Shown: positions 1 through 12,312 of the stretch, in pieces
Layout of the letters: each line of letters opens with the position of its first letter
Position numbering within the stretch: the stretch's first letter is position 1
Program-made: the position numbers and the translations under genes
Notes under the pieces: model-generated
What the model saw: the letters and a program-made list of their open reading frames with translations, nothing else
Databases searched by the model: none
What the model was told of the DNA's origin: nothing
NCBI RefSeq assembly: GCF_021534965.1
Contig: NZ_CP091037.1
Coordinates: 3,541,501-3,605,500, forward strand
Direction of reading: 5' to 3'
From: Muricauda sp. SCSIO 65647
GTDB lineage: Bacteria; Bacteroidota; Bacteroidia; Flavobacteriales; Flavobacteriaceae
DNA: 64,000 bases

Positions 1-37
1 CAAAAGCAGAGAAGGGGTTCGATTCCCTTAGGAAAAA
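1..37 (+). tRNA. possible 3' end of a tRNA (or att-site copy), cut by the window edge
   Basis: Bases 13-29 form a T-arm: a 5-bp stem AGGGG/CCCTT around the 7-nt loop TTCGATT. The seven bases that follow (AGGAAAA, 30-36) and one discriminator base could be the 3' acceptor strand. No CCA is encoded and the 5' half lies outside the window, so acceptor pairing cannot be tested. A short tRNA 3' end next to an AT-rich RT island would also fit an attachment-site duplicate left by an integrating element. Confidence 0.3.
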
Positions 38-229
38 CAACTACCTATTTATTAGGAGTCAACATACTTAAGTAACAATGTCTTATCATCACTCTTTTTA
101 CTCTTCTTACCTGGTGTCAGTATTCTTAAAAAATATGGCAGTAAAAAACTGACAAAGAGTCATTTAAAATTAATCTATCTAAGGAATTTTCCCCTTTTTC
201 AATTTGGGTATGGTTTATGTTCAATAAAA

Positions 230-501
230 AGCATTATGGCTGGGACAAGACCAGCAGATACGTTTTATGCTAAGTGCACATTTGTGTTCCACGCGCAGAA
301 TTTCGGCTGACGCGTGAAGTGTGATTCCAATTTCACAAATCTGCAACCATGTTCTTACAAGTTTCATGGCCAGTAGAATAGTGAAGGGAGTTACCTTAAG
401 TTCAACTTCTGTTATTGCTGTCATATTGCACGGTTCTATCAAAGTTACGAACTTCATTCTATCAAAGAGTGGCGTTGTGTATTGCGAAAGCAAGAAGCAA
501 C
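230..501 (+). ncRNA. candidate structured ncRNA leader upstream of the reverse transcriptase
   Basis: This gene-free stretch folds convincingly by eye. One hairpin is GCTGG/CCAGC (239-243/251-255). A long hairpin domain has an outer stem 275-286/334-345 with one mismatch, stacked on a GC-rich inner stem 287-298/307-318 with one or two bulges and loop AATTTCGG. A final hairpin has a GAAA tetraloop closed by TTGC/GCAA (482-485/490-493) inside GTTG/CAAC (474-477/498-501). An 11-nt direct repeat, TTCTATCAAAG, occurs at 434-444 and 457-467, 23 nt apart. Known DRT2 and DRT9 systems carry an ncRNA template in exactly this place. That this RNA is the template is inference; its ends are not known. Confidence 0.45.
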
Positions 502-556
502 ATCAGGATTGTATCTGCCAATTAAGGTAAGCCACGACCAGCCATATTTTTTTACT

Positions 557-2275
557 ATGGTTGAAGATTGGTTGAAATTTAAAAAATATCCCCACATTGG
601 ACGTCCCTTAACAAAAAGGAGGGACAGTGGTTGGATAATTAATTATGTTACCAATCCAGACAAAATCACCAATCATAAATTTGTACCTCTCCTTCACAGA
701 ACATTAAATCAACGCAAGTATAGACCTGCTAAAAATGCTTTAAAAAACGAATATGGCAAGAGGCAGCGGACGGTAGGTGAAAAAAAGCAACGTCACATAT
801 TTTTTTCATCTCATTTGGATTCCATTATTTATAGTTACTACAGTCATTTGCTTACCATTGCCTATGAAGATTACTTAAAAGACAAACCTTACTCTTCTGT
901 TGCTGTCGCATACCGAAAAATCCCTATTAAAAATGGAAAAAGTGGAAATAAGTCCAACATAGAATTTGCATTCGAAGCTCTAAATTTTATTGAAGAAAAT
1001 AAACACCGAAAGCTTTCTATAATCGTGGCGGATGTCACTTCCTTTTTTGACAATTTAGACCATCGCTTATTACACGCTCAATGGAAGCGAGTTTTAAGAG
1101 TCAATAATATGCCGGAAGATCATTATGCAGTTTATAAAAATTTGATTGCAAAGAATTATGTCAATGAAAACGAACTTTTTAATCGTTTCCAGCACAAACT
1201 AATGATAGAACGATTTAAGCCACATGATACTTCACAAACAGAACTAAAAAGAAAAAAGGTCAGCAAAATCTACAACATGCGGCACGAAAAAGTGGTTGCA
1301 TTCTGCACTACTGAAGAATTTTTTGATGAAGCCACTGATCTTATTCGCTATGACAAGCCTCTAAGTTCTAGAAGTAGGAGTGAACTCGGAAAAACTAAAC
1401 TCAAAGGTATTCCACAAGGTACTCCAATAAGTGCTACTTTGGCTAACATCTACATGTTAGATTTTGACGAAAAGGTTAATAACGCCGTAATTGACTCTTC
1501 AAAAAAAGCTTACTACCAAAGGTACAGTGATGATCTTATCATAATTTGTAATCGAGAGGATGAAGAATACTTTTACAGTTTGATACAAAATGAAATTGAA
1601 GTTAAAGCGAAGCTCGACATTCAACGTAAAAAGACCAACATATACCATTATGAGTTAAATGAGACTGGCGAATTTATGGGCGGGATAGTTGAAAACGGAA
1701 AATTGAACCAAAACAAGCAATTGGAATATTTGGGTTTCAGCTATGATGGAGAAAAAGTCAGGGTTAAAACCGCTGGTTTTTCTAAATTTTATCGCACAAT
1801 GAAAAGGTCTTTTAGACGTGGTGCTCATTTTGCCAAAAAAGCCCATATTCCATCAAATTCATTATTTGAAACACGTTTGTATAAAAGATTTACCCATGTC
1901 GGTTCAAAACGTCGTCTAAAGTGGATGCCTGATCCCGGTAGTCCTACAGGATATAGCCGTTCTGTACATTATGACTGGGGTAATTTCATCAGTTATTTAA
2001 GTAAAGCAAACGAAGTAATGAAAGAAATCAATGGAGATGATACAATTAAAAGGCAATTCCGCAAAGTATGGTCGAAATTCCATGAGGTAAAGGAAAATAC
2101 TTATCAAGAATTGGGTAAAGTCAAGGTTTCGAAAAAGCAGGACAGAAGAAAATGCCAACCTACACTGCCTATGGCAGTTTCGGCAGGTAAACGGGCCGGT
2201 TGGGGAGTGAACCTGCCTGCCGCTGGCAGGTTTGTGGTTAACACGGCAGCACCATTGCCCTGGGCTTTGTGTTAG
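557..2275 (+). CDS. reverse transcriptase of the unknown-group/defence-associated type (DRT2/DRT9-like)
   Basis: Encodes an RNA-directed DNA polymerase of about 572 residues from the ATG at 557, chosen because the conserved block (WLKFKKYPHIGRPL) starts right after it; the frame is open upstream to 482. Palm motifs are intact: the first catalytic Asp in VADVTSFFDNLDH (about residue 159), GIPQGTPIS (about 284-292), and YSDD (about 323-326). The N-terminal pattern YVTNP..(I/V)..HKF and the block HLDSIIYSYY..YE..L....AYRK...SNIEFA match my memory of defence RTs of the UG2/UG28 groups, not group II introns (no maturase or HNH) nor DGRs. The last 45 or so residues are encoded by the palindromic 3' RNA region and look like read-through. 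The gene is clearly AT-richer than the rest of the window, suggesting transfer. RT is near certain; the defence subgroup is an inference. Confidence 0.85.
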   Translation: MVEDWLKFKKYPHIGRPLTKRRDSGWIINYVTNPDKITNHKFVPLLHRTLNQRKYRPAKNALKNEYGKRQRTVGEKKQRHIFFSSHLDSIIYSYYSHLLTIAYEDYLKDKPYSSVAVAYRKIPIKNGKSGNKSNIEFAFEALNFIEENKHRKLSIIVADVTSFFDNLDHRLLHAQWKRVLRVNNMPEDHYAVYKNLIAKNYVNENELFNRFQHKLMIERFKPHDTSQTELKRKKVSKIYNMRHEKVVAFCTTEEFFDEATDLIRYDKPLSSRSRSELGKTKLKGIPQGTPISATLANIYMLDFDEKVNNAVIDSSKKAYYQRYSDDLIIICNREDEEYFYSLIQNEIEVKAKLDIQRKKTNIYHYELNETGEFMGGIVENGKLNQNKQLEYLGFSYDGEKVRVKTAGFSKFYRTMKRSFRRGAHFAKKAHIPSNSLFETRLYKRFTHVGSKRRLKWMPDPGSPTGYSRSVHYDWGNFISYLSKANEVMKEINGDDTIKRQFRKVWSKFHEVKENTYQELGKVKVSKKQDRRKCQPTLPMAVSAGKRAGWGVNLPAAGRFVVNTAAPLPWALC

Positions 2276-3064: not shown

Positions 3065-3622
3065 CTATGCCACTACCTCTCTTTTTGTTTTGTCAGTGGT
3101 TGTAATATGCAGTGGTACTTCACATTGATGGGCAAGCTCGGCAATGCGCAATACTTTTGATTCCGATCCCACAAAGAAATCGCTTTTGACGGTACACTGA
3201 CCTTCATCATCAACGATCAGCACATTGGTATGCTGTTTGGATAGCCATTGGGTCAAGCCGTCGCCCATGAACGGAAATTGATTGCCCTTGCGCAACCCCA
3301 ATACGATCAGTGCGGGTCGTGATTCTTTGATCTTCTCCTGCACGATGTTTTTGATATGGCCATACCGCACCTCTACCGAACAATTGTTCTTGGGCAATAC
3401 GCCCGTCAGTTCTTCCATTTGCCTCGTCGTTGTTCGGTAATCTTCATAAAGGGCCCGTTTGGCACTGAATTGGTTGTCGCCGGCCACTACCTTCGATGGT
3501 TTTTTCACGTGCATTATTTCAAGTGCCGCATTCAAGTTATGGGCCAGTTTGTGTGCATTGATCAAGTTTTTTTGTGCTGTGTTTTTGAGGTCGTGCAAGA
3601 AGAGCACCCGATGTGATACCAT
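3065..3622 (-). CDS. universal stress protein (UspA-like), single domain
   Basis: A cytosolic protein of 185 residues with the Usp layout: N-terminal strand RVLFLHDLKNTAQKNLINA, a middle HVKK strand, and the core VRYGHIKNIVQEKIKESRPALIVLGLRKG. The nucleotide-binding G-2x-G-9x-G(S/T) loop is only partly kept, so ATP binding is uncertain. Length is a little over one Usp domain, whereas many Bacteroidota Usps are tandem. It stands alone, with its own -7 box at 3645-3652. A role in stress adaptation follows from the family only. Confidence 0.75.
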   Translation of the reverse strand: MVSHRVLFLHDLKNTAQKNLINAHKLAHNLNAALEIMHVKKPSKVVAGDNQFSAKRALYEDYRTTTRQMEELTGVLPKNNCSVEVRYGHIKNIVQEKIKESRPALIVLGLRKGNQFPFMGDGLTQWLSKQHTNVLIVDDEGQCTVKSDFFVGSESKVLRIAELAHQCEVPLHITTTDKTKREVVA

Positions 3623-4969: not shown

Positions 4970-5129
4970 GGGACATCAAAATTTATAGTATTGAATATGA
5001 GATAATTACATGAAATCTGCAAGCTTGTATGTACAAACGGTGGCCAGCACTGTACAAATGGTCGTTCGTAAAATGTGAAGTAAAAAGTATCGACTGCCCA
5101 GTGCAGTGGGTTCATGAGCTAGTGGTACA

Positions 5130-5459
5130 TTATTCATGCGCTGTGGTAGCCACCACCCTGAGCACTTTTTCTGAAAAAGGATTTTTTTGAAGCATCGATA
5201 ACAGTCTTTGTTTTCGTTTTTCTGAAATGTCCAACGTATCCAAAGCCTGTGTTATGGCCATAATACGGGCTTTGTGCTTCTGTTTTAGACTATCCCTTGC
5301 TTCTTCTGATAAGTCGATGGCCCATTCGAACTGGGCGACCTGGGTACGGGGTACCCCATCGCTGTACTTTTTTATTTCCTTTTGTGCATTTTGCCCAAAC
5401 GAAAGTTGTGCAAAAAGCAGAAACAGGCCAAACCATAAAAGAGGGTGGTTCCGCTTCAT
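5130..5459 (-). CDS. secreted hypothetical protein, 109 aa
   Basis: A Sec signal peptide (residues 1-22, cleavage near SFGQ-NAQ) precedes about 85 charged, helical residues (LSEEARDSLKQKHKARIMAITQALDTLDISEKRKQRLLSMLQ). No family recognised. The pattern of short helices with regular Leu spacing is like small periplasmic stress proteins, but that is only a resemblance. It is divergent from the yceI-like gene with about 135 bases of shared promoter region. Confidence 0.5.
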   Translation of the reverse strand: MKRNHPLLWFGLFLLFAQLSFGQNAQKEIKKYSDGVPRTQVAQFEWAIDLSEEARDSLKQKHKARIMAITQALDTLDISEKRKQRLLSMLQKNPFSEKVLRVVATTAHE

Positions 5460-5594
5460 TATACTAGTGTTCGTCGGGCGACAAGGTATTGATTTTGGTT
5501 GAATTGTGCTTGATTTTTGGATATTCGGTAAGTTTTATCGGTATTTTTGAACCAATTGGCCGTATGGCATTCATTTTGCCCCTATCTCAATACC

Positions 5595-6113
5595 ATGAAT
5601 CATTTTTTTCACGCTTTTCTGATCATTGCCCTTCTGCTCCCCCATAAAGGTTTGGCGCAGCAAGAGGTCCGTATCGCATCCGCTGCCATCACCTTTGAGT
5701 TTCCCTCAAAAAAGGTAAAAGGCAGTATCGAAGGCTTCCAATCCAATGCAATCATCGACCGACAGCAGCCCGGTAACTCTGTCTTTGAGGGCTCGGTGGC
5801 CGTCAAAACGTTAGATACCGGCATCGGTTTTAGGAATTGGGTCTTGAGGGGTAGAAAGTACTTTGATGAAGATAACCACCCCCAAATACACTTCAAGAGC
5901 AACGAGGTGGTCGAACAGAACGGAGCATTTATCGTAAAAGGCACTTTGACCCTCAAAGGAATTTCAAAACCCCTTACCATTACTTTTAACGAACAAGGAA
6001 ACCGATTGGTGGGCAACGCCTCCCTCTACTCCATCGACCACGACATTAAGATCAAGAAAAAGCGTGAAGACAATCTGGTAAACATAAACTTCGTGTTTGT
6101 CTTGGCGGAATAG
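5595..6113 (+). CDS. YceI-family lipid-binding-like periplasmic protein
   Basis: The ATG at 5595 is chosen because it begins a clear Sec signal peptide (MNHFFHAFLIIALLLPHKGLA). The mature part has the YceI lipocalin-like pattern: strands ending in FEGSVAVKTLDTGIGFRNWVLRG, then KYFDEDNHPQIHFKS and FIVKGTLTLKGISKPLTI. YceI proteins hold isoprenoid-like lipids in an extended beta barrel in the periplasm. About 172 residues, the usual size. Convergent with the polyketide operon. Confidence 0.75.
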   Translation: MNHFFHAFLIIALLLPHKGLAQQEVRIASAAITFEFPSKKVKGSIEGFQSNAIIDRQQPGNSVFEGSVAVKTLDTGIGFRNWVLRGRKYFDEDNHPQIHFKSNEVVEQNGAFIVKGTLTLKGISKPLTITFNEQGNRLVGNASLYSIDHDIKIKKKREDNLVNINFVFVLAE

Positions 6114-6114
6114 A

Positions 6115-6132
6115 CCGATTCAGAACAATCGG
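6115..6132. terminator. hairpin between convergent genes, possible bidirectional terminator
   Basis: A 6-bp stem CCGATT/AATCGG with loop CAGAAC sits between the yceI-like stop and the end of the polyketide operon. The nearest T-run lies about 7 bases after the stem on the + strand, so this is weak as a terminator. Confidence 0.3.
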
Positions 6133-6134
6133 AT

Positions 6135-6563
6135 TTACCTTTTTTTGAACAGTGCCGTGTAGATTCGCCCTACGGCCCAATTGCCCAAGGGAAAATAAAG
6201 GGCAAAAAACAAGGCCATCGCCAAACTAAAATTACGTTCGGTAAAAAACTGGTCCACCAAGTTATTGGGATAGGCATAGGAAGTGCCCAGGGCATAGCCC
6301 CCGAACTCTAACAGTCCCATGGCAATGAGGCCGTAGGCGTATTGCTGATGAAATGGTAGTCCACGCAACAATAGTGAAATGGGCACCATATAGAGAATAT
6401 AGCAGGTAATGACCTGCCACCAAAAGGTAAAACGTGCAATTTCCATCTCGGTACCGAACCAGTTCATGCCCAGGCCCCAAAGGAAATAGACCACACAGTA
6501 TATCAGCAGCAATCGACGGTCGACGTCTAGCTTTTGTTTGGCCCATTTGATAAAAGCTTCCAT
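6135..6563 (-). CDS. small polytopic membrane protein, last gene of the type III PKS operon
   Basis: A protein of 142 residues with about four hydrophobic segments (LLLIYCVVYFLWGLGMNWF, FWWQVITCYILYMVPISLLL, YGLIAMGLLEFGGYAL, FSLAMALFFALYFPLGNWAV). I do not recognise the family. Its ATG overlaps the ACP stop by one base (TAATG), so it is translationally coupled. A role in moving or placing the lipid-like product in the membrane is an inference from position alone. Confidence 0.6.
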   Translation of the reverse strand: MEAFIKWAKQKLDVDRRLLLIYCVVYFLWGLGMNWFGTEMEIARFTFWWQVITCYILYMVPISLLLRGLPFHQQYAYGLIAMGLLEFGGYALGTSYAYPNNLVDQFFTERNFSLAMALFFALYFPLGNWAVGRIYTALFKKR

Positions 6564-6817
6564 TATTTTTCCACTATTTTTTTATCGATAATGGCCAGGG
6601 CGTCCTGTACGGTCTGCATGCCATCCATATCATCATTTTCGAGCATGATGTCAAAAGCGTCCTCCACATCCAATACGATATCGACCAGATTGGCCGAGTT
6701 GATGTTCAGTTCACTGGTAAAATTGCTCTCAGGTCTGATCTCGTCGACCGAGACGTCGTCGGGCAGGTAGGTCTTGACAATCTCCTTGAGCTTGTCGTAC
6801 CGATTTTCTTTTTCCAT
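6563..6817 (-). CDS. acyl carrier protein of the type III PKS operon
   Basis: An acidic protein of 84 residues with the ACP four-helix layout. The phosphopantetheine serine is in LNINSANLVDIVLDVEDAF, a diverged form of the usual DSL motif (NSA), suggesting a dedicated carrier. Helix three is typical (MQTVQDALAIID). The ATG at 6817 fits ACP length and lies 7 bases after the ketosynthase stop. It likely shuttles the acyl starter made by the neighbouring FabI/FabZ/KAS enzymes. Confidence 0.8.
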   Translation of the reverse strand: MEKENRYDKLKEIVKTYLPDDVSVDEIRPESNFTSELNINSANLVDIVLDVEDAFDIMLENDDMDGMQTVQDALAIIDKKIVEK

Positions 6818-6824
6818 AGTTGTT

Positions 6825-8096
6825 TTAGTAGTCGCTAAACCTGCTAAAAATAACACAGGTGTTCACATCGCCAAAACCAAAACTGGCTTTTGCCACAATT
6901 TTTGGGGAAATGTTGATCGTTTTCTTCGGAATTTTGGATTCCCCTACCCTTTTGGCAATCTCAGGATGCACATCTTCACCATTCACATTACCATAAATGG
7001 TACCGTGGTGCAGCTGTAACACGGCCCCTACCGACTCAATACTGCCCGCAGCCGCCAAACAGTGCCCCACATGCCCCTTAAACGAATTCACATAGGGGAA
7101 ATCTTCGCCATGGCGGTCCAAGGCCTGGCACCAGTTCTCGATCTCGATCGGGTCTTTGGCCGTTGCGGTCAAGTGGCCGTTGATGGTATCGATGGCCGAG
7201 CTTGATACCTTGGTGTTTTCAAGGGCCATTTTGACGCACCGTTGTACCGCTTCGCTGTTAGGTGCGGTCATACTGCCGCCATTTCGTTGCCCGCCGCTGT
7301 TCACGGCACCCCCAAGCAGCTCTGCATAAATGGTGGCCCCACGTTGTTGCGCGCTTTCAAGTGATTCCAATACCAAGGCCCCTGCCCCACTTCCGGGCAC
7401 GAACCCCGCTGCCGAGGCACTCATGGGCCTACTGGCCTTTTCAGGGGTATCGTTAAAATTTCTGGGAAGAATGCGCATGGCGTCAAATCCGCCCCATACA
7501 TACGGACCACTATCACTGCAACTGCCCACCAACATTTTGCTTGCCTGCCCTGAAGCAATGCGTTCAAAGCCCATTAGAAGAGCCTCGGTGCCCGTGCTAC
7601 AGGCCGAAGAGTTGGTCGTCACCTGATTGCCTGCCCCGATCATACCGCCCAAAAAGGCACTGATGCCACTGGCCATGGTCTGCACCACCGCTGTACTGCC
7701 TAAGCGACGTACGTTGCCCTCATCGACCAGATAGATCGAATCGCGAAATTTGTCGACCCCGAGTATTCCCGTACCAAAGATGACACCTGTTTCCCAATCT
7801 GTGTTGTTAGATGCATCTAATCGTGCATCGCGCCAGGCATCCATGCCGGCCATCACCCCATAGACAAGTCCGCTGGCATTCAATCCCTTTAGCTGAACAT
7901 TGGTAAAGTATTGGTTCAAGTCAATGTGGTCAATAAATGGTTTTCCAGCAATTTGACATCCAAATTTTAGTTTTTCCAATTCTGGGAAGAAGGTAATGCC
8001 GCTTTTTCCTTCAGAAAGCATTTTTTCAAACTGCCTGAGTCCGACCCCACCGGGCGCACAGACTCCCAAACCCGTGACCACTACCCTATTCTGCAT
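6825..8096 (-). CDS. beta-ketoacyl-ACP synthase (FabF-like)
   Basis: A thiolase-fold condensing enzyme of 423 residues. The catalytic triad is visible: Cys166 in SSACSTG, His308 in NGHLTATAKDP, His345 in KGHVGH. The second motif has NGHLT where housekeeping FabF usually has (E)AHGTGT, so it belongs to a diverged, pathway-specific group, like ketosynthases of aryl-polyene or resorcinol clusters. Overlaps the dehydratase start by 11 bases. It probably extends an ACP-bound acyl chain that primes the polyketide synthase. Confidence 0.85.
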   Translation of the reverse strand: MQNRVVVTGLGVCAPGGVGLRQFEKMLSEGKSGITFFPELEKLKFGCQIAGKPFIDHIDLNQYFTNVQLKGLNASGLVYGVMAGMDAWRDARLDASNNTDWETGVIFGTGILGVDKFRDSIYLVDEGNVRRLGSTAVVQTMASGISAFLGGMIGAGNQVTTNSSACSTGTEALLMGFERIASGQASKMLVGSCSDSGPYVWGGFDAMRILPRNFNDTPEKASRPMSASAAGFVPGSGAGALVLESLESAQQRGATIYAELLGGAVNSGGQRNGGSMTAPNSEAVQRCVKMALENTKVSSSAIDTINGHLTATAKDPIEIENWCQALDRHGEDFPYVNSFKGHVGHCLAAAGSIESVGAVLQLHHGTIYGNVNGEDVHPEIAKRVGESKIPKKTINISPKIVAKASFGFGDVNTCVIFSRFSDY

Positions 8097-8565
8097 CCAT
8101 TCTTTTTATTAACATGCCCGATAGCGTACCGCGACAGACCAATTCGTTTTTTTCATTGAACATCTTGACCTTGCACTTCAATTTCTGGAAACGGTAATAT
8201 ACCTTTTCGGAGACCACGGTCACCGTCTCGTTGGGAAATACCGGTAACAAGAATTCCATTTCACTGCTTGAAAGGGCGATTTGTAGCCTTTCGGCTATTG
8301 TAGCACTGCTTTCCTGCCCCAAAAGATAGCTGCCCAAGCACACCAGGCCAATCTGTGCGCAGCATTCGGTCAACAATACGCCCGGCGTAACGGGATGGTC
8401 TTTGAAATGCCCTTTGTAGCAGTCCATTTCTTGTGAAAAGGTAAATAGTCCCTTGGCACCGTTTTCGTCGACATAAAGTAGTTCATCTACAAATAGAAAC
8501 GGTTTTGCATAGGGCAGGTTCTGTAAAATTTCCTCTGGTTTCATAGTATTGCTTATACCTGACAT
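8086..8565 (-). CDS. 3-hydroxyacyl-ACP dehydratase, FabZ-like hotdog protein
   Basis: A single hotdog domain with the FabZ catalytic stretch GHFKDHPVTPGVLLTECCAQIG, where His and a downstream Glu (LTE) form the usual pair. The start is set at the ATG three bases after the upstream stop; an ATG at 8544 (MKPEEILQNLPYAKPF) is equally possible because it begins the conserved N-terminus. It overlaps the ketosynthase by 11 bases. It removes water from a beta-hydroxyacyl-ACP within the operon's own small fatty-acid-like cycle. Confidence 0.85.
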   Translation of the reverse strand: MSGISNTMKPEEILQNLPYAKPFLFVDELLYVDENGAKGLFTFSQEMDCYKGHFKDHPVTPGVLLTECCAQIGLVCLGSYLLGQESSATIAERLQIALSSSEMEFLLPVFPNETVTVVSEKVYYRFQKLKCKVKMFNEKNELVCRGTLSGMLIKRMDAE

Positions 8566-8568
8566 CAA

Positions 8569-9354
8569 TCACCTCAGACTTTCGCCCCCATCCACTTTTA
8601 TGACCGTTCCGGTAATCCATTGTGCTTCTGGCAGGGTCAACAGATATACTGCATCGGCCACATCTTCGGGGGTGGTCAAGCGATTATTGGGATTTCGCTT
8701 CAATGCATTTTTTATCAAGGCCCCACTATTGGGGATCATTCGAAACGATGGGGTGTCGGTCAGTCCGGCCTGAATGCAATTTGCTTTTATACCAAGCGGT
8801 GCAAATTCCAAAGCCATATTGCGAACAATGGCCTCAAGACTGGCCTTGGCCGCTGAAACGGCTCCATAGCCCTGCAAGGCCTTTACATTGCCCTCACTGG
8901 TAAAGGCAATGATTCGGGTATCACTGGCAAATAGTCCTTGTTTGACCAGATCGCCGGTCCACTCATACAGACTGGTGGCCATGGCATTGATGGTCAACGC
9001 AAAATCTTGCCCCCGCAAGACGGCTTCGGTGTTGGAATGCATGGGCTTTAAGTTGCCCTTGGCGATACTGTGCACAAGTACCTTTATTTTCTGATCATGC
9101 AAAAGTTCAGAAATGGCCAAGATCAACGCTTTGCGTTTCGCTTCATTGGTCGCATCTTCATTGAAGCTATGCAACGCTTGACCATGCTCCCTGATTTTTT
9201 GAAAGTGTCGGTCGATACTGTTCTGATCGGTCTTTCGGTCACGATGCACAACGATAAGGCCATACCCTTCTTTTGCCAGTCTTTGGGCCGTTGCAAGGCC
9301 CAAGCCACTGCTTCCGCCCAATATCAGAGCCCATTTCTCATTTTCTAAAATCAT
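8569..9354 (-). CDS. short-chain reductase, enoyl-ACP reductase (FabI)-like
   Basis: A Rossmann SDR of 261 residues starting with LILGGSSGLGLATAQRLA (NAD(P) loop) and ending ITGTVIKVDGGESL. The active site reads YGAVSAAK, i.e. Tyr-x6-Lys, the spacing of enoyl-ACP reductases and not the Tyr-x3-Lys of FabG; LEAIVRNMALEFAPLGIKANCIQAG also follows FabI. It would saturate the enoyl intermediate made by the dehydratase. A 3-oxoacyl reductase partner is not seen in the operon and may be shared with primary FAS. Confidence 0.75.
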   Translation of the reverse strand: MILENEKWALILGGSSGLGLATAQRLAKEGYGLIVVHRDRKTDQNSIDRHFQKIREHGQALHSFNEDATNEAKRKALILAISELLHDQKIKVLVHSIAKGNLKPMHSNTEAVLRGQDFALTINAMATSLYEWTGDLVKQGLFASDTRIIAFTSEGNVKALQGYGAVSAAKASLEAIVRNMALEFAPLGIKANCIQAGLTDTPSFRMIPNSGALIKNALKRNPNNRLTTPEDVADAVYLLTLPEAQWITGTVIKVDGGESLR

Positions 9355-9395
9355 ATACGATTTTTTCTATCGTCAATTTCCGATCTCGTTTCCAA

Positions 9396-10451
9396 TTACC
9401 ACTCCAACAGCACCCTTTGGGCCGAAAAACCGGGTCCAAAACTCAATATAAGGCCCTGCTCTCCCCTTTTCAGTTGTTTTTCCATAAACCGCTCGAGTAC
9501 ATACAGCACGGTAACACTGCTCATATTGCCATAGGCACGCAGTACTTCTCGGGTCTCTTCAATCGACTTCCCCAATTTACCAAACAATTCATCAACGGTC
9601 TGTACGATCTTACGCCCGCCCGGATGAAAAATCAGGTGGTCTACTTTTTCAATGGAGGTACCGTGCTTTTTCAAGAAAGGATGCACGATGGCCTCAAAGT
9701 GTGCCGCGATTACCTCGGGCACAGCGGGATCTAAAATCATTTTGAGTCCCGTATTGGTCAAATCGAAGCCCATCATATGGGTCGCCTCGTAAAAATGGTA
9801 CATTTCTTCACCGATGATGGCCGGGCCTTCTATATTTTCTTCTGATGACAGTAGCACACAGGCCGCCCCATCACCAAAAATAGCGGCACTGACCATATTG
9901 GCCATCGAGAAATCTTGGAGTTGAAAAGTAGCGGTCGGACTCTCAACGGCCACAACAGCGGCTCTTTTGCCCGAAGCGCCCCGTAAGAAGTTTGCCGCAT
10001 AGATCAATCCAGATACCCCGGCCGCGCAGCCCATTTCGGTCACAGGGAGCCTGACCACATCTTGTCGTAGCCCCAAATCGTTGACGAGATAGGCATCGAG
10101 TGACGGAATCATGATGCCCGTACAACTGACGGTGATGATATAATCTAACGAATCAGCGCTCCACCCTTGGTTTTCCAATGCCTTTTTTAAGACATTTTTG
10201 CCCAAGCGTTTCATTTCTCGTACATAAATGGCGTTTTTTTCTTCGAATGAGGTGGCCGTGAAGACCTCGTCGATGTCCATGATGCCATAGCGGCAGTCTA
10301 CCCCTGCCCCTTCAAATATTTTGAGCACTTTTCGACGAAAACGTTCTTCTTGATCGGCCAACCAATGTTGCACGTACGGCAATATCGCCTGTGTATCGCG
10401 GCTGAAAGGGGGCAGTTCTTTGGCTACATTGACAATTCGGGCCATGGTCAT
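9396..10451 (-). CDS. type III polyketide synthase (chalcone/stilbene synthase family)
   Basis: About 350 residues with the complete Cys-His-Asn triad: Cys in TEMGCAAG, His in IFHPGG, Asn in YGNMSS, plus the C-terminal GFGPG-like LSFGPGFSAQ. The family condenses malonyl-CoA onto a CoA or ACP-linked starter and cyclises to pyrones or resorcinols. The start is the ATG just after the methyltransferase stop; ATG 10445 is an alternative. A dedicated ACP, KAS, FabZ and FabI next door suggest a long-chain acyl starter delivered from ACP, as for alkylresorcinol and alkylpyrone synthases. The product is not known. Confidence 0.9.
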   Translation of the reverse strand: MTMARIVNVAKELPPFSRDTQAILPYVQHWLADQEERFRRKVLKIFEGAGVDCRYGIMDIDEVFTATSFEEKNAIYVREMKRLGKNVLKKALENQGWSADSLDYIITVSCTGIMIPSLDAYLVNDLGLRQDVVRLPVTEMGCAAGVSGLIYAANFLRGASGKRAAVVAVESPTATFQLQDFSMANMVSAAIFGDGAACVLLSSEENIEGPAIIGEEMYHFYEATHMMGFDLTNTGLKMILDPAVPEVIAAHFEAIVHPFLKKHGTSIEKVDHLIFHPGGRKIVQTVDELFGKLGKSIEETREVLRAYGNMSSVTVLYVLERFMEKQLKRGEQGLILSFGPGFSAQRVLLEW

Positions 10452-10453
10452 GA

Positions 10454-11167
10454 TCAAATGGGTCGTTTGGTTCGCAAGGTCCATACAAATCGAAAGGCCC
10501 ATTGCCATTTGATTGTATGGTTTGCATTGGTGACTTGTTCGGACAGTGCATCCAGTTCCGCTTTTTTGAAACCACGCCGTATGGAGACCAGTCCGTCATT
10601 TCTGGCAATGGCAGTTTTTAGAAAAAGGAAGCCAAAAAGCATAAAAAGATAGTAGGCGAAGCGATGGCGGTGCAGGTCGTTGATGACCACGCCGATTTTG
10701 GCCAGTCTCGAAAAGTTGTTCAGCAACCCTGGAAGCCGTTCATCACCAAAATGATGAAGGGTCAACGTGCAGAGCACTATATCACAAGCATGTTTTTCGT
10801 CATTCAGGTGCAAAATATCTCCCTGAACATATTCTATTTCGGGAAAATCCCTTGAAGAGCTGCGGGCGATCATGGCCACATCTTCCCGCAACTCTAACCC
10901 TATCAATTTGGCCTGAATCCCTTTTTTTCTTAGGGAAATGGCGAGTTCACGAAGCATTTGGCCATCACCGCAACCTAAGTCCAAAATCGTATACGATTTT
11001 TTTTGCACTGTTTTGATGAGCTCGTGCACCGCTTTTATCGTAATACGGTTGCCGCCCAGCCATGCGTTGGCACGATTGATGTCTCGAAAGACCTTTTCAA
11101 GGGTGAATAGCTCCAAATCTGGAGCATCCATCCATTCTGTTTCATGACTTCTCAGCGCTAAATCCAT
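10454..11167 (-). CDS. class I SAM-dependent methyltransferase
   Basis: A Rossmann methyltransferase of about 237 residues: motif I LDLGCGDGQML, acidic loop LIGLELR, motif II QGDILHL, motif IV CDIVLCTLTLHHF. The ATG at 11167 overlaps the oxidoreductase stop by one base (TGATG). A hydrophobic stretch (YYLFMLFGFLFL) suggests membrane contact, as expected for a lipid-like substrate. In type III PKS operons of other bacteria an adjacent methyltransferase O-methylates the phenolic or pyrone product, and I infer the same role. Confidence 0.8.
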   Translation of the reverse strand: MDLALRSHETEWMDAPDLELFTLEKVFRDINRANAWLGGNRITIKAVHELIKTVQKKSYTILDLGCGDGQMLRELAISLRKKGIQAKLIGLELREDVAMIARSSSRDFPEIEYVQGDILHLNDEKHACDIVLCTLTLHHFGDERLPGLLNNFSRLAKIGVVINDLHRHRFAYYLFMLFGFLFLKTAIARNDGLVSIRRGFKKAELDALSEQVTNANHTIKWQWAFRFVWTLRTKRPI

Positions 11168-12312
11168 CAATTCAAAATTGGTTTCCCATGGGTTCTTGAA
11201 ATAAGGGTCTGCACTATTTTCTGTGATCGCGCCACCGTACCAATGGCCAATTCAGAAAAGGTCTTATGGAGCAAGATGTGCTGTAGGTACCTTCCCATCA
11301 CTATTCGTTGTTGAAAATGGTGTTGCCAAAGCGAGGCGTATCGTTTTTCTAAACTTGAAATGGGTGCATGGGGATTTTTCAGGTGCCCCAATACGCTCTC
11401 CACAGCGATCTTGGCGCTATGTATAGCCATGGCCATGCCGTTTCCGCACAGTGGATGGAGCATTCCCGCACTATCGCCCAATAGCAATATATGGTTCTCG
11501 ATCGGGGATTTTCTTCGGAACGAAATTTGGGCAATGGTCAATGGTTTTTCAAAAAGCGGGGTCGCTTTTTCGAGAAAACTTCCTAAAAACGGATTGCTTC
11601 CCACTACATTATTGGTAAAAGCGTTCAGGTCTTTTTCCTTTTTGAAACTTTTATATGAGGCCAGGTAGCAGAAATTGACACTGCCTTTCTCGGTTTTTGA
11701 AAGTCCGGCATATCCCCCGGTAAAGCTATGCAATCCCACCAAGTGACTAGGATGCCCATCGTACTCGTAATGACATTTGACCCCCAACCAAGGTGAGTTT
11801 TTTTTGATGAATGCACGATTCAGTTGCGCATCGAGGTTGCTGCGTTTTCCGAAGGCCCCCAGAACCACTTGTGCGGTTAGGGTACCATTATTTTGCGTGG
11901 TGATGGTGAAGATGCCATTTCTATGGACCACGTCGCTCGCCGTATCAAAAAGAAAATCTGCCCCTGCAGCCTGGGCGCAGTCATATAGGTGTTTGTCAAA
12001 AGCATAACGGCTTAGGCCGAAGCCACCCAGTGGTAAAGGCGTCTGGATTGATTTACCGGTCTGTGTGCTGAGCTGCAAGGCAGCTATTTCAGCCGGTCTC
12101 AAAACATTGATATCGACCCCCAATTGCGACAAGTAGGGCCTTACTTCGTTCGAGACATATTCGCCACAGACCTTGTGCTTGGGATAGCGGTATTTTTCAA
12201 TGACCAATACCTTTTTTTCTGCCTTGGCCAAATGCAGCACGGCCGTCAGGCCTGCCAGTCCCCCTCCCAAAATAATCACCTCATAGTCGTACACGATATG
12301 AAGATAGGCCAT
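11167..12312 (-). CDS. FAD-dependent oxidoreductase, geranylgeranyl-reductase/hydroxylase-like
   Basis: About 381 residues. FAD-binding GGGLAGLTAVLHLAKAEKKVLVIEK is at the N-terminus (dinucleotide loop, Glu for ribose), then KHKVCGEYVS (GR motif area), and the second FAD motif LLGDSAGMLHPLCGNGMAMAI. This is the p-hydroxybenzoate hydroxylase/geranylgeranyl reductase superfamily. The ATG at 12312 is preferred; an ATG at 12348 would place codons across the upstream terminator. First gene of the operon; likely oxidises or reduces the polyketide product. Hydroxylase versus reductase cannot be decided from sequence alone. Confidence 0.8.
   Translation of the reverse strand: MAYLHIVYDYEVIILGGGLAGLTAVLHLAKAEKKVLVIEKYRYPKHKVCGEYVSNEVRPYLSQLGVDINVLRPAEIAALQLSTQTGKSIQTPLPLGGFGLSRYAFDKHLYDCAQAAGADFLFDTASDVVHRNGIFTITTQNNGTLTAQVVLGAFGKRSNLDAQLNRAFIKKNSPWLGVKCHYEYDGHPSHLVGLHSFTGGYAGLSKTEKGSVNFCYLASYKSFKKEKDLNAFTNNVVGSNPFLGSFLEKATPLFEKPLTIAQISFRRKSPIENHILLLGDSAGMLHPLCGNGMAMAIHSAKIAVESVLGHLKNPHAPISSLEKRYASLWQHHFQQRIVMGRYLQHILLHKTFSELAIGTVARSQKIVQTLISRTHGKPILN

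Follow-up and report, generated by a model that had tools for sequence, protein, structure and literature searches.

A DRT2 reverse transcriptase system from Muricauda sp. SCSIO 65647 with a predicted neo gene and a candidate Bacteroidota promoter at the repeat junction

Introduction

DRT2-type systems that make neo genes are known from Klebsiella and Escherichia coli. In published DRT2 systems the reverse transcriptase (RT) copies a template located between two identical ACA motifs of a non-coding RNA (ncRNA) into tandem repeats (PMC12039810, PMC11100668). The repeat carries an antisense promoter across its junction, has no stop codon and has a length divisible by three (PMC12039810, PMC11100668). 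This study describes an RT gene and its leader in a 64,000 nucleotide (nt) stretch of the genome of Muricauda sp. SCSIO 65647 (contig NZ_CP091037.1, positions 3,541,501 to 3,605,500), referred to here as the window. The locus very probably belongs to a Bacteroidota lineage of DRT2 (UG2) defence systems and on the combined analysis would make a toxic neo gene by template jumping. New relative to the papers covered is the predicted set of working parts in Bacteroidota.

Published DRT2 ncRNAs are least conserved in the template, and structure predictions of published Neo proteins were of low confidence (PMC12039810). Low conservation of Neo has also been found in the literature. A 2024 survey found ncRNAs, had more trouble annotating Neo in the divergent clades of DRT2 and raised alternative mechanisms as a possibility (PMC11100668). 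In the open papers covered on DRT2 and neo, Bacteroidota systems were not treated in substance; priority is uncertain as the final journal version of the survey and its supplement were not covered. Two other systems are comparable. DRT9 (UG28) is also an RT with an upstream ncRNA and a similar gene layout, but its product is poly-dA made from a U-rich template with no coding role (PMC12483538) and its RT has low similarity to that of the window. DRT10 makes ncRNA-templated tandem-repeat DNA and is described as another, protein-primed system (PMC12632851).

Results

The RT gene is encoded on the plus strand from 557 to 2275. Its frame is intact, with FFDNLDH, PQGTPIS, YSDD, YPHIGRPL, YVTNP and SNIEFA all present as the original prediction had read them. 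The start codon is the ATG at 557, which is kept across homologues, and an earlier TTG at 482 falls within the ncRNA upstream of the RT start. The gene was assigned by profiles, predicted fold and comparison with homologues. Against the PADLOC profiles the RT scored 450 bits with Drt2 (3e-135), with a second Drt2 model at 1e-82, compared to 78 bits (3e-22) for the best non-Drt2 family and 50 bits for Drt9. The best match in a sequence search of the PDB was also Drt2. The predicted structure (mean predicted local distance difference test score 88) matched 9c0i, a solved DRT2 RT, best (E 2e-33), with DRT9 second (E 1e-10). Scores fell below the cut-offs for group II intron RTs (TIGR04416, 73 bits against 300) and retron RTs (retron St85, 47 bits against 235).

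A tree of 86 RTs placed the window RT in a supported group with 24 or 25 others from Bacteroidota of many families. This spread over families indicates that the gene moves between hosts. A search of viral contigs returned a single remote relative. By sequence and predicted fold the RT is DRT2/UG2 and not a DRT9, retron or group II intron RT. The N-terminal pattern had been likened earlier to both UG2/DRT2 and UG28/DRT9; the first likeness stands, while the second reflects RTs that are merely related.

The RT gene is preceded by a DRT2-type ncRNA at 236 to 548 on the plus strand, its ends placed from conservation and the closing helix in an alignment of 25 to 26 loci with covariation. The leader of approximately 313 nt folded better than all 100 shuffled sequences (z -3.4). 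In the alignment of 25 sequences 42 pairs were found, 20 of them with two-sided changes, and 95.5% of the cells were paired. None of 500 shuffles scored as high, and support collapsed when pairing partners were slid by one to three columns. The 5' strand of the closing helix P1 (237 to 243) pairs with 538 to 544, with six of seven pairs changed on both sides and 87% of cells paired. The 5' strand of the long-range helix P2 (250 to 262) pairs with 510 to 528, and seven of its 12 pairs were changed on both sides. A 5' handle hairpin lies at 290 to 316; 99% of its cells were paired and four of its pairs were changed on both sides. The strand GTGGC at 469 to 473 forms a pseudoknot with GCCAC at 531 to 535, which crosses P2, was paired in 100% of cells and is replaced by GTAGC/GCTAC in locus L031. 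A 3' scaffold hairpin follows at 474 to 501, with two pairs changed on both sides. All of these elements are on the plus strand. The variable part of the ncRNA is the sequence between handle and scaffold. An Rfam search at gathering and permissive thresholds gave no relevant match.

Across the aligned loci the leader is conserved as a structured RNA. A structured leader had been expected, but the 71-nt domain proposed at 275 to 345 did not hold, as the conserved helices differ. The GNRA-capped hairpin is present in the window copy with the loop GAAA, which is not invariant among homologues. The broader claim of a defence-type RT that copies an adjacent ncRNA is borne out as a DRT2 RT with a conserved ncRNA, and the copying is probable.

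For the template, 26 loci including the window were compared. The putative template is located at 324 to 455 on the plus strand and would be one 132-nt repeat unit of a concatemeric cDNA. It lies between two ATTC motifs on the same strand, jump motif 1 at 324 to 327 and the identical jump motif 2 at 456 to 459, the predicted counterparts of ACA-1 and ACA-2. In almost every member the variable region is flanked by the ATTC pair; L030 has TTTC at both places and L029 shares TAATT. All 26 loci had a template divisible by three in length (129, 132, 135, 138 or 141 nt), and the length of the 3' scaffold fell in all three classes modulo three.

The predicted neo reading frame is on the minus strand (326 to 454), with 44 codons per repeat and no stop across the junction. 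An ATG of this frame (422 to 424, minus strand) is conserved in nearly all clade members. The antisense strand of the circularised unit was stop-free in the same frame in all 26 loci. Stops per repeat numbered 0 in this frame and 1.9 and 7.0 in the two others of that strand; a stop-free frame has a chance of approximately 4% per sequence, and the sequences are related. The predicted Neo peptide is hydrophobic, with a grand average of hydropathy of about +1.0, like the published Neo. A close homologue on Marivirga plasmid p1 (L117) kept the full neo signature in its ncRNA. Its RT appears to be frameshifted, with stops in one frame and a tblastn match in five pieces.

Promoters of the primary sigma factor of Bacteroidota have TAnnTTTG at -7 and TTTG near -33 (PMC7366714, PMC9723704). 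In the window a putative -7 element, TAACTTTG, is located at 440 to 447 on the minus strand and fits this consensus (PMC7366714, PMC9723704). The putative -33 element TTTG is located at 336 to 339, also on the minus strand, and would be usable only after concatenation. When the template ends were joined, TTTG or TTG came to lie precisely 20 nt ahead of TAnnTTT[GA] at 25 of the 26 loci, L032 having TTTG at this spacing across the junction. In the linear chromosome CACT or a similar sequence occupies the -33 position in 26 of 26 loci and the -33 box is absent from all, so the promoter would not exist before copying. The repeat junction forms a candidate Bacteroidota sigma-A promoter instead of the sigma-70 form. 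The leader probably holds three things that the original prediction did not mention: the template, a promoter in two halves and a neo frame free of stops.

A conventional small antisense gene overlapping the leader (window open reading frame 221 to 493, 90 amino acids) might also explain the frame and length constraint, and in the chromosome the open antisense frame does run past the template end, in the window by 100 nt. This explanation is highly unlikely. The linear frame ends variably in homologues, 13 to 100 nt past the template, whereas the rule of three is exact between the repeated motifs. The -33 box is correctly spaced only after joining, in none of the 26 linear loci, and the same junction rule is found in a sister clade with ATACC motifs despite its unrelated template sequence. 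Slightly less likely again, and very improbable, is a DRT9-like RT whose ncRNA would template a homopolymer or short repeat, leaving the central region a mere spacer. DRT9 is a near neighbor with an upstream ncRNA and with weak sequence and fold similarity, but the RT is much closer to DRT2 by both measures, the alignment has no conserved U-run at the start site and the central region retains the open frame and the split promoter.

The junction rule was scanned in the 420 nt upstream of 82 RTs as a repeated 4-mer 90 to 190 nt apart with TTTG-N20-TAnnTTT[GA] across the join. A junction promoter was found at 45 of the 82 loci, and in 43 of these the length was also divisible by three and the antisense frame open. 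Dinucleotide shuffles gave means of 2.8, 1.1 and 0.28 loci for the three scan steps, with a maximum of one in 25 runs at the last step. The sense strand gave no match in the 82 loci. Approximately half of the 43 passing loci do not belong to the clade from which the rule was derived; most of these are in the RT clade with ATACC. Three loci from these two clades that were added later and lay outside the first set (L005, L127 and L130) all passed.

As a positive control, two E. coli DRT2 loci were scanned for sigma-70 promoters. The top result was the ACA pair with a 117-nt repeat and an open frame, and with TTGACA or TGGACA-N17-TATAAT across the junction, in agreement with PMC12039810. A Photobacterium locus annotated Drt2 gave AGAT, 111 nt and TTGACA-N17-TATAAT in the sigma-70 scan. 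ACA is therefore not universal among annotated Drt2 systems, while the architecture is common. The jump motifs are not the Klebsiella-type ACA in the window locus, where they are ATTC, or in the sister clade, where they are ATACC.

Compared to the DRT2 systems of K. pneumoniae and E. coli the window lineage has the same layout, with one RT gene preceded by a structured ncRNA that contains a pseudoknot. Also shared are the template with a length divisible by three between identical short motifs, the stop-free antisense frame, the promoter split across the repeat junction and the hydrophobic Neo. The RTs are approximately 26% identical in the fold alignment. In the window lineage the RT is larger (511 residues against 425), the jump motif is ATTC instead of ACA, the repeat unit is 129 to 141 nt against mostly 117 to 120 nt, the ncRNA is approximately 310 nt against 281 nt and the predicted promoter is of the Bacteroidota sigma-A type instead of sigma-70. 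The signals point to a DRT2 lineage with neo-gene synthesis adapted to host transcription, another jump motif and a larger template.

The ATACC lineage (L044 to L066) has the same anatomy and the same N20 junction promoter, but its RT is approximately 45% identical, its jump motif is ATACC, its repeat is 150 to 159 nt and its template sequence is unrelated to that of the window clade. In a subclade (L062 and L067 to L070) ATACC motifs at a spacing of 144 to 148 nt and an open frame were found with CTTG or TTTG-N20-TATATTGC. The junction promoter of this subclade ends in TATATTG[CT], resembling TAnnTTGY, a motif from a separate class of Flavobacterium promoters (PMC9723704). A different sigma factor may be involved, which is taken as a lead only.

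The homologous part of the RT stops at approximately residue 511 to 523 (approximately 2089 to 2125). The frame then continues to 2275 through a stretch common to no homologue. The usual stop is absent and around 50 extra residues come from non-homologous sequence. The system may formerly have worked as proposed while the window copy became degenerate through 3' fusion to foreign sequence, which the missing stop and the extra residues would favor. This is unlikely, although less so than the two alternatives above: the window copy retains intact every catalytic motif, the pair of jump motifs, each half of the promoter and the open neo frame, and a tail at the C-terminus would not have to abolish RT activity.

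The 3' structure (2140 to 2450) folds well (z -4.1), is single copy in the genome and shows no conservation together with the system. Its reading as a second RNA was considered and rejected, as blastn against 85 loci found nothing conserved downstream of the RT. Intergenic repeats at 2386 to 2453 and 2475 to 2632, which include the tail TTTTGGTTCGTTTTCTTTGGACAAGCAAAGAAAATGAAC, had approximately 70 to 97% identity to many unrelated places in related genomes, for example ten in genome G056. The 3' stretch was taken as a border to foreign or repetitive DNA and not as a second RNA. The suggested subgroup with an RNA on either side of the RT is not supported, given the lack of downstream conservation in homologues and the dispersed intergenic repeat in part of the 3' stretch (approximately 2386 to 2632).

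The GC content is 0.34 to 0.36 over 500 to 2000 compared to 0.43 to 0.57 over most of 5000 to 12000, in line with the AT-rich island noted earlier. A tRNA search for an integration site found none. Window positions 1 to 40 contain a sequence like a tRNA T-arm, GGGGTTCGATTCCC, with no tRNA gene, which is perhaps an old attachment-site remnant. An operon with a QatC/QueC-like protein (6e-59) and unassigned genes lies approximately 4 to 7 kb before the window start and is followed by a TacA-like/GNAT toxin-antitoxin-like pair; the region is L122:9626-14062, approximately 3 to 7.4 kb before the window start. With these neighbors a small defence island is likely.

Hairpin elements of approximately 140 bp were seen beside or flanking the ncRNA and RT units in several homologues, with ends like GCACTACACACAACA and CCGTTGTGTGTAATGC. 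L024 has five copies in 9.5 kb (380 to 485, 3385 to 3525, 5577 to 5707, 6685 to 6812 and 8829 to 8953), resembling a cassette array. Such elements were also found near the RT in L022, L023, L025, L027, L035, L039 and L055. A reading of these cassette-like elements as integron attC sites was rejected, as the ends misfit canonical R boxes; the elements are outside the window.

Discussion

The proposed mechanism combines two kinds of evidence. The analysis itself identified the RT, showed the ncRNA to be conserved and structured, set the template boundaries by comparing homologues, and found the constraint on frame and length and the split promoter. Template jumping, the second strand, the phage trigger, expression and toxicity were taken from K. 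pneumoniae DRT2. The RT would hold the ncRNA through the handle, the P1 and P2 helices and the pseudoknotted 3' scaffold, and would copy the 132-nt template. The end of the nascent cDNA at ATTC-1 would re-pair with the identical ATTC-2 and begin a new round, giving tandem repeats. After second-strand synthesis a junction of two repeats would become the Bacteroidota sigma-A promoter TTTG-N20-TAACTTTG. The transcript from this promoter would have an endless stop-free frame of 44 codons per repeat, and the hydrophobic Neo protein may arrest growth of the infected cell.

Several observations weigh against this interpretation. NF041746, the Drt2 model which was the best NCBIfam match of the RT, scored 318 bits, under its equivalog cut-off of 390; this cut-off is a naming threshold and not a biological feature, and the model is centred on another lineage. 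L038 kept the -33 box with TATATTAC as its -7 box, outside the strict promoter. Some outer clades have no strict promoter, and the distant loci L007 and L126, fetched later (43 and 37% identity), gave no strict match. The scan followed a rule whose N20 spacing and permitted final A had already been read from the data; the shuffles were held to the same rule. Selection on the Neo amino acids is slight, with a synonymous share of 0.31 against 0.25 expected and the second codon position least variable. The C-terminal run-on of the window RT could impair this copy.

Neo synthesis is probably general across Bacteroidota, with the promoter re-tuned to the sigma factor of the phylum, at least two jump motifs (ATTC and ATACC) and maybe another sigma factor in L062 and L067 to L070. 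If so, neo expression in this subclade would depend on physiological state. The rule of identical end motifs, a length divisible by three and a host-type promoter at a fixed N20 would assign neo genes to a large Bacteroidota branch. The rule would also reduce the question on divergent DRT2 clades to a few point-mutation tests. Since their junction promoter is not of the sigma-70 type, Bacteroidota DRT2 systems may fail when assayed in E. coli.
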